A stretch of DNA of 64,000 nt, taken from NCBI GenBank assembly GCA_902800015.1, contig CADCCU010000001.1, positions 1 to 64,000 on the forward strand, given 5' to 3'. The DNA comes from an uncultured Ureaplasma sp. (GTDB taxonomy: Bacteria > Bacillota_I > Bacilli_A > Mycoplasmatales > Mycoplasmoidaceae). The translations under genes and the position numbers were made by a program. Shown here piece by piece: positions 6,940-9,380 of the stretch (positions are counted from its first letter, which is position 1; each line of letters opens with the position of its first letter). Under the pieces are notes generated by a model. It saw only the letters and a list, made by a program, of their open reading frames with translations, made no database searches and was not told where the DNA came from.

Positions 6940-8226
6940 ATGACAACTAATTTTGAATTTAAGCAAATACTAAATAAAATTAAACAATTTTTACGACAAA
7001 ATTTTACAAAACGTAATAATTTAGTAAGATTGATTTATTTTGCTATTGCTGCAGCAATCGTCATAGTTTGTGCATGCCCAATGCATATATTTGCTATGAA
7101 TGCTGAAAAAAGTCATTATGGTAATGGATTAATTCAAATTGATATTGCCTTAAATGATGGAATTTCATTTTCAATATTAAGTGGTAATACGATGGCTATA
7201 TATGCTTTACAAGCAATAATTATTTTAATCATATCTGTATTTTTAACATTTTGTGTAAAATGATATTATGTATTGACTCTTGGCTTAGCTGAAACAGGTG
7301 CATTATTTAATTTTTTTGATCGTATGGTACCTAAATGCCCTGTTAGTTTAAGCAGTGGAGGAATACAAAAAAATTGTGTCCTAGATTATCTCCATTTTAG
7401 TTTTGGCAGGACATCATTTAACTTCCCAGATGTATTTATCATAACCGGATTAATTCTTGCTTTACTTATTAGTTTAATTTTATTAATTGATAATAGTGTT
7501 AGAGAATCAAAAATGAAAAAAATGAAAGAGACAAAAATAAATCAAAATAATCTAAATGTTATCTTTGAAGATGATAATTATATTATTGTTAACAAACCTA
7601 AAGGTATGTTAGTACATCCTACTAAATATGAAGATAAAAATACTGTAGTTGATTTTTTAAGACCAAGGATTAAAGTGCAAGAGTTCAATGATGCTTTACG
7701 ACCAGGAATTGTTCAACGTCTAGATCGTGATACAAATGGACTAATGGTAGTTGCTAAAAATAAAAAAACTGCCGATGAATTAATTAGTCAAATTCAAGAT
7801 AACACTTTAGTTAAAAAATACTATGCAATTGTCCATAATGATTTTAAGGATGATGAGATTATTATTAAAGCCCCAATAATTCGTTCAAGTAGTAATACTA
7901 CTAAAATGGTTGTTAGTGATGATCCTAAAGCAAAAGATGCTATTACAGAACTAAAAGTGCTTGAACATTACAAAACTGCAGCACTTATTGAATGCAAATT
8001 ACTAACTGGTAGAACACATCAAATTCGTGTCCATATGAATTACATTCATCACCCTATCTATAATGATCCTTTGTATGGTCATAATGACGGTTATGAAAAT
8101 TATGGGCAATTTTTAACTTCTCACTATCTTCAATTTATAAGTCCGACATCTGGTCAAGTTGTAAAATACAATATTGAACCTGATCAAATTTTTAATAAAC
8201 TAAAAGAAGAATTAAAATCAATGTAA
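6940..8226 (+). CDS. lspA: LspA (signal peptidase II) fused to RluD-type pseudouridine synthase
   Basis: One uninterrupted 428-residue frame encodes two enzymes. Residues 1 to about 185 are LspA, the membrane aspartyl protease that removes lipoprotein signal peptides: four hydrophobic segments, LNDGISFSIL, GALFNFFDR with the first catalytic Asp (about 127), and FNFPD with the second (about 164). From about residue 205 the protein is an RluA/RluD-family pseudouridine synthase catalytic domain: VNKPKGMLVHP, the RLDRDTNGL motif with catalytic Asp (about 262), and LLTGRTHQIRVHM. The S4 RNA-binding domain that normally precedes RluD is missing, and the linker is short and Lys/Glu/Met-rich. The only standard-code stop in the frame is a TGA tryptophan at 7261. 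LspA normally ends in the cytoplasm, so the synthase would sit on the inner face. In-frame ATGs at 7513 and 7522 could also yield a separate RluD. tsaB starts one base downstream. Confidence 0.9.
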
Positions 8227-8227
8227 T

Positions 8228-8797
8228 ATGAAGCTTTTTATTGATACAACACAAAACTATTGTAATCTTGCATTAATTAATCATAAAAATCAAATTGTTG
8301 ATAAATATCAAGAATTAACCAATAACAACATGACAGATTTAGTTATTGAAAAAATTAATTACATTCTTAAGAAGAACAAAGTCAATAAAAATACAATTGA
8401 AGCAATTTATTTATTAATTGGACCAGGAAGTTTTACTGGATGCCGTGTTGGCTATATAATTGCAGTAACTTGAGCTAATATAAAAAATATCAAACTTTAT
8501 ATTATGAATTCTTTGTTATTTCAAACAAATAAAGGTACTGGCATTAGCATTATCGATGCTAAGAGTAATAAAAAATTCATAGCTATTTATGATAAATATC
8601 AAGCTATAATTGAGCCTGAAATAATTCTAAAAAATCAAGCAGAAGACATATGCAAAAAACATAAGAAAATTAATATTTATAGTGATTACAAAAATATTGA
8701 TTTTTTTGAAAGATTACAACAACATTTATCAAAATTTAAAATTATTAAAAATCTTGATAAATTAGAACCATTATATTTAAAAAGACCTATTGAATAG
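8228..8797 (+). CDS. tsaB: tRNA threonylcarbamoyladenosine biosynthesis protein TsaB
   Basis: TsaB is the ASKHA-fold scaffold partner of TsaD in making t6A37 on ANN-decoding tRNAs. The 189-residue protein starts MKLFIDTTQNYCNLAL (the family's DTS-type opening) and has the conserved LIGPGSFTGCRVG segment. It is at the short end for the family and degenerate toward the C-terminus, as is common in mycoplasmas. The frame crosses one TGA tryptophan at 8471. Its ATG is one base after the lspA-rluD stop and its stop is one base before the next gene, so it is part of a tight operon. Confidence 0.85.
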
Positions 8798-8798
8798 T

Positions 8799-9380
8799 AT
8801 GAAAACAAAGCCTATAGAAAACTTAAATTCAAATACTGATAACAACTTTGTTAATGAAAGAAAATTATTAGCACTTGATGCATCATACAAATGAAAGAAA
8901 TATTGAAAAGTTATTAATATTTATTTTTATGTTACAGTTGCAATAGGTCTAGCTTTATTTATTACAGCAGCTATAATTTTTCCTCACCAAAATGATTTTA
9001 ACAAGGTAAAAACTTTAGGTATGGTTTTCGGTTTTATCTCATTAGTTTTTTTAGCCATTACTTGAGTCCTTAACATTTTTTTTAATGCACCAATAAAATA
9101 TATCAATAGTTCGCAAAAATGTTTGGAACCATTGCATATTAAACAAAAGAAGATTATGATTTTTTATCGGATTGTTTTCTTTTCTTTAACAACTTTACCG
9201 ACATTTACATTAATAATTGCTACAAATATCATTGATCGTTACTATATTGGATCTATTGCTGCAATTTATGCATCTTTAGGGGTCTTTATTTGTCTAGCAA
9301 TTATCACAATATGTATTCATGTTGCTTATATTAAAAACAAGCAAGCAATGTACAAATGTGTACTACACGACTATATTTAA
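8799..9380 (+). CDS. Hypothetical four-helix membrane protein
   Basis: The 193-residue protein is not one I recognise. A hydrophilic N-terminus of about 35 residues is followed by two hydrophobic helices (about residues 42-62 and 75-95), a basic loop and two more helices (about 120-142 and 150-172), ending in a short hydrophilic tail. Tryptophans at several places are TGA. The ATG is one base after the tsaB stop, so co-translation is likely. A promoter for hisS lies immediately downstream, which makes this the last gene of its operon. Confidence 0.75.

Follow-up and report, generated by a model that had tools for sequence, protein, structure and literature searches.

In the 64,000-nucleotide stretch of DNA analysed here (the window), the forward strand at positions 6940-8226 carries an open reading frame that joins a signal peptidase II (LspA) to an RluD-type pseudouridine synthase. 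The frame has 428 codons and is open under genetic code table 4 only, in which TGA encodes Trp. It contains no in-frame TAA or TAG and a single TGA at 7261-7263, corresponding to Trp108, a residue identical in 20 LspAs of the genus. The predicted protein consists of an LspA part (residues 1-182), a linker (residues 183-205) and an RluD part (residues 206-428). In a Pfam profile search, residues 57-179 matched Peptidase_A8 and residues 213-367 matched PseudoU_synth_2, both above their cut-offs. Together with three further species described below, the frame and its two domains bear out the initial annotation, which had read the region as one stop-free frame of LspA and RluD. Profile search of the source genome identified one Peptidase_A8 gene, namely this frame, and two PseudoU_synth_2 genes, the second being a 316-codon distant paralogue on another contig; neither a second lspA nor another copy of the fused rluD was found. 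One base past the TAA of the fused frame starts a separate tsaB gene (8228..8797, forward strand), encoding the t6A dimerisation subunit (TIGR03725, 89.6 bits against a cut-off of 69.3). Between tsaB and hisS, positions 8790-9380 of the same strand encode a predicted membrane protein of 196 codons with a TTG start.

LspA is an antibiotic target and is usually a minimal four-helix enzyme. The LspA half (6940..7485, forward strand) matches PF01252 (Peptidase_A8) with an E-value of 1.5e-11 and 45.2 bits against a cut-off of 25, and scores 47.1 bits with the LspA equivalog TIGR00077, under the cut-off of 73.95. As this divergent mollicute LspA misses TIGR00077, its assignment is based on PF01252, the motifs and the gene order. 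The N-x-G, NxxDR and dyad motifs are represented by N72, G74, N124, D127, R128, D149, N161 and D164, matched to the Staphylococcus aureus enzyme via motif spacing rather than a computed alignment. Residues N72, G74, G120, N124, D149, N161 and D164 are invariant in the 20 LspAs of the genus compared. Among them, Asp149 (7384..7386, forward strand) and Asp164 (7429..7431, forward strand) correspond to D118 and D136, which form the catalytic dyad of S. aureus LspA (PMC6952399); both catalytic Asp residues are thus present, as first annotated. In S. aureus LspA, the active site lies outside and the C-terminus extends into the cytoplasm (PMC6952399), and this homology supports the cytoplasmic C-terminus that had been proposed for the LspA part. 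An AlphaFold model, which was built from a thin alignment and is of low confidence in this half, predicts four membrane helices (residues 24-53, 84-104, 108-129 and 162-201), and a fold search with it returned the LspA structure 6ryp as a weak match. Compared to the stand-alone S. aureus LspA (LspMrs, PDB 6RYO/6RYP; PMC6952399), the window protein shares the four-helix membrane aspartyl peptidase architecture and retains, by motif, 11 of the 14 highly conserved residues, including N-x-G, NxxDR and the catalytic dyad. It differs in having Pro163 in place of Ala135, in showing no counterparts of D21 and K25, and in bearing an enzyme on a 245-residue cytoplasmic extension. From its family membership, the LspA half is predicted to cleave diacylglyceryl-prolipoprotein in a globomycin-sensitive manner.

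The RluD half (7555..8223, forward strand) matches PF00849 with an E-value of 3.1e-35 and 122 bits, and the RluA-family profile TIGR00005 with 235.3 bits, above the cut-off of 192.7. The RluD equivalog NF008385, which also covers the S4 part missing here, gives 148.8 bits, under its cut-off of 351, yet no other specific RluA-type profile scores higher. Both the sequence and the modelled fold (pLDDT about 85-95) match RluD crystal structures, including PDB 11wx and 1v9f. The catalytic Asp262 in the RLDRDTNG motif, with a computed position of 7723..7725 on the forward strand, is nearly invariant in the alignment. Compared to stand-alone RluD of Escherichia coli (PDB 1v9f/2ist) and Neisseria gonorrhoeae (PDB 11wx), the RluD half has the same catalytic fold, the RLDxD motif and the lspA-rluD neighbourhood, but it lacks the N-terminal S4 domain and is joined behind LspA. 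Only about 23 residues separate the two domains and no S4 domain was found in the frame, in agreement with the annotated absence of this RNA-binding part. The family match and the fold suggest that the RNA target would be the helix 69 uridines of 23S rRNA (Psi 1911/1915/1917). An RluD of a different composition occurs beside ileS in another Mycoplasmatales family (L039:968-3589, reverse strand): it bears S4 and has about 530 extra residues, in which a PD-(D/E)XK-like pattern (ESPDFIL..GFEIV) was read by eye; Pfam recognises S4 and PseudoU_synth_2 alone in the whole protein.

Searching mollicutes for the same fusion, as the initial annotation had proposed, revealed three further species. Among the 60 relatives searched, G007 (78% identical), G017 (73%) and G015 (68%) carry LspA-RluD in one frame, open under table 4; G017 is RUG206 and G015 is RUG13716, which we take to be rumen assemblies. 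No other single-frame match spanning LspA and RluD was among the matches listed from 320 Mycoplasmatales. In a class-wide sample of 395 genomes, none of the approximately 149 LspA frames listed exceeds 285 codons, too short for an LspA-RluD protein, with frames of genomes reading TGA as Trp being under-reported in this sample. Three apparent candidates were rejected: G026, with a frame of 446 codons, has two genes in separate frames with stops between them; G041, with a match spanning 22-420, is arranged as lspA-TAA-rluD; and G034 has one TAG between lspA and rluD. In a ParE+GyrB tree, the four genomes with the fusion group together as a clade (SH-aLRT 99), which was recovered again in a separate IQ-TREE run. 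The LspA-RluD fusion therefore arose once, in the ancestor of these four species.

The ancestral gene order in the family is lspA-rluD-tsaB, which supports the earlier suggestion that neighbouring genes were fused. In relatives lacking the fusion, an overlap of about 20 bases between lspA and rluD, read in different frames, is common. As the unfused rluD genes of G010, G011, G021, G022, G032 and G034 are already devoid of S4, the loss of this domain probably preceded the fusion. In the sister species G034, lspA, a single TAG and rluD all lie in one frame, the probable rluD start being a GTG located four codons upstream of the conserved Tyr; losing one stop such as this TAG would yield the gene layout of the window. 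We propose that rluD would have lost its S4 part within a compact lspA-rluD-tsaB operon, that lspA and the RluD catalytic domain would then have come into one frame, and that the lspA stop codon would have been lost in the ancestor of the four rumen mycoplasma species. Across the genus, S4 loss from rluD seems to have been repeated, affecting G010/G034 plus the fused clade, the G011/G035/G022 group, G021, G012 and G004.

The linker (7486..7554, forward strand), as delimited by alignment, spans 23-24 codons in all four LspA-RluD fusions. Its dN/dS is about 0.8-1.6 or saturated, its length varies by whole codons only, and its start is modelled as a continuation of the last LspA helix. Two in-frame ATGs, at 7513 and 7522 (7513..7524, forward strand), are present as initially annotated and could release RluD alone. 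The ATG at 7522 is plausibly a relic of the former rluD start: the separate rluD of G010 begins MINQKNKIEIVYEDD, and the window sequence there is MKETKINQNNLNVIFEDD. Judged against the unfused G010, the linkers of G007 and G017 have an ATG exactly at the old rluD start, 11 residues before F/Y-E-D, and that of G015 has a TTG at this position and an ATG at -4, such that in-frame start codons occur in all four fusions. Met is also more frequent in these linkers (6 of 110 residues) than in those of the LspA-TsaB proteins described below (1 of 166; Fisher p 0.017), a post hoc comparison with linker limits picked by eye. Given these start codons, some or even much of the RluD may be produced free; in the extreme, most of the working RluD would be a soluble product of a linker ATG, with the full-length protein providing LspA and its fused RluD being a passenger. 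No Shine-Dalgarno-like site lies upstream of the linker starts, although just 15 of 48 long open reading frames in the window carry one; moreover, the start positions vary among species, and some may be mere inheritance. We regard this internal-start explanation as plausible but less likely than not. As the frame has no stop after LspA, LspA can be made only as the fusion or by cutting the fusion; separate production of the two domains hardly applies to LspA, whereas for RluD an additional free form is conceivable.

The LspA-RluD fusion of the initial annotation stands, now placed in a wider setting that comprises a four-species clade and a second fusion, LspA-TsaB, in eight relatives of the genus. 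The latter proteins of about 360-400 residues are encoded in one frame at L033 (G013), L034 (G016), L035 (G018), L036 (G002), L037 (G009), L038 (G030), L045 (G008) and L129 (G028). Our survey of open-access full text found no prior description of either fusion. As in LspA-RluD, the next operon gene is joined in frame to the LspA C-terminus, but here rluD has been lost and LspA is joined to the t6A protein TsaB instead; the junction is essentially devoid of start codons. None of the eight genomes has an rluD orthologue (no match at 1e-30), and a single TsaB match was found in each. Within the 20 codons ahead of the TsaB domain, seven of the eight fusions contain no ATG, the exception being G009, with one about 17 codons upstream; in G002, a GTG/TTG lies further upstream. 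With start codons nearly absent, TsaB can hardly be made alone in these eight genomes. In G014, rluD is lost as well, and lspA and tsaB abut without being fused. The eight genomes do not form a clean clade, since G004, with an unfused lspA-rluD-tsaB order, falls inside the group on the tree; an AU test rejects their monophyly (p 8.5e-6; the group was named after seeing the tree). This history may reflect at least two fusions, a single fusion that later reverted in one lineage, or long-branch misplacement of G004.

Further LspA tails are found in the same family. In six genomes of the genus g24, LspA has two Cys4 zinc-ribbon motifs at its C-terminus (L180:2490-3527 and L181:2439-3356, both reverse strand; also G294, G295, G297 and G301), as judged by eye for two of these genomes, and this tail weakly matches a topoisomerase zinc ribbon. 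The LspAs of G273 (988 residues; L194:1893-4859, reverse strand) and G274 (597 residues; L195:1895-3688, reverse strand) end in very long, charged, repetitive coiled-coil tails. These proteins likewise extend the cytoplasmic C-terminus, but their extensions are non-enzymes, and rluD and tsaB remain separate genes downstream. Overall, the sequences suggest that the LspA C-terminus is a site of repeated extension and gene fusion in this mycoplasma family.

Such recurrence could mean that the tethering itself was selected, because it would hold RluD or TsaB at the membrane, perhaps beside membrane-bound ribosomes or in a way that links the processing of lipoproteins to translation. It would fit that two different translation-related proteins are joined to the same LspA tail within one genus, that the TsaB fusions must put TsaB at the membrane (with a separate TsaD kept in all eight genomes), and that zinc ribbons occur on the LspA of a related genus. 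However, each partner is merely the next downstream gene, the other tails include repetitive coiled coils, the majority of relatives are unfused and the linkers are unconstrained, all of which make selection for tethering rather unlikely. Slightly less probable still is the broader proposal that, in this lineage, the cytoplasmic LspA tail has repeatedly come to anchor RNA-modifying enzymes (RluD in one clade and TsaB in another), with rRNA or tRNA modification taking place at the membrane.

Pairwise dN/dS among the four fusions is 0.11-0.27 for the LspA half and 0.08-0.23 for the RluD half, indicating that both halves are under purifying selection. The exception in structure is G015 (L004/L084), in which 16 residues (48 bases) of the LspA half are missing, including the catalytic D149; this half may be dead in G015, or the assembly may be wrong at the gap. 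The loss of D149, and the disappearance of rluD from eight relatives, might be taken to indicate that one half has decayed, so that LspA would persist as a mere anchor or RluD as a degenerating tail; since both halves of the remaining three fusions show low dN/dS and keep their catalytic motifs intact, we consider such decay improbable. That two frames were joined artificially by a mistake in assembly or sequencing, a concern of the initial annotation prompted anew by the metagenomic origin of all the assemblies and the suspicious 48-base loss in G015, is contradicted by the same junction recurring between selected domains in four separate assemblies of distinct species, and is hardly credible.

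The frame is thus a genuine, fixed fusion, and we consider it likely that it derives from the lspA-rluD-tsaB operon as proposed and yields one 428-residue LspA-RluD protein with a membrane-tethered RluD. Ribosomes starting at 6940 would make a single polypeptide, the LspA part of which would insert into the membrane such that the active site faces outward and the C-terminus remains cytoplasmic; the tether of about 23 residues would then hold an active RluD that modifies the helix 69 uridines from the membrane. The full-length protein is predicted to accumulate with both enzymes active, and the topology of LspA implies that RluD would be membrane-bound in the cell. The most likely cause of this genuine fusion is operon compaction in a reduced genome, which would be tolerated because the LspA C-terminus lies free in the cytoplasm.

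The enzymes are known and their arrangement is new. With two RNA-modification partners in one genus, the LspA C-terminus appears able to tolerate large cytoplasmic cargo. The fusions record a route by which overlapping genes of an operon become bifunctional proteins in reduced genomes, and near-intermediates of this process survive in G034 (lspA-TAG-rluD) and G014 (lspA abutting tsaB). In addition, LspA-TsaB would oblige a subunit of tRNA modification to reside at the membrane, which bears on where t6A can be made.
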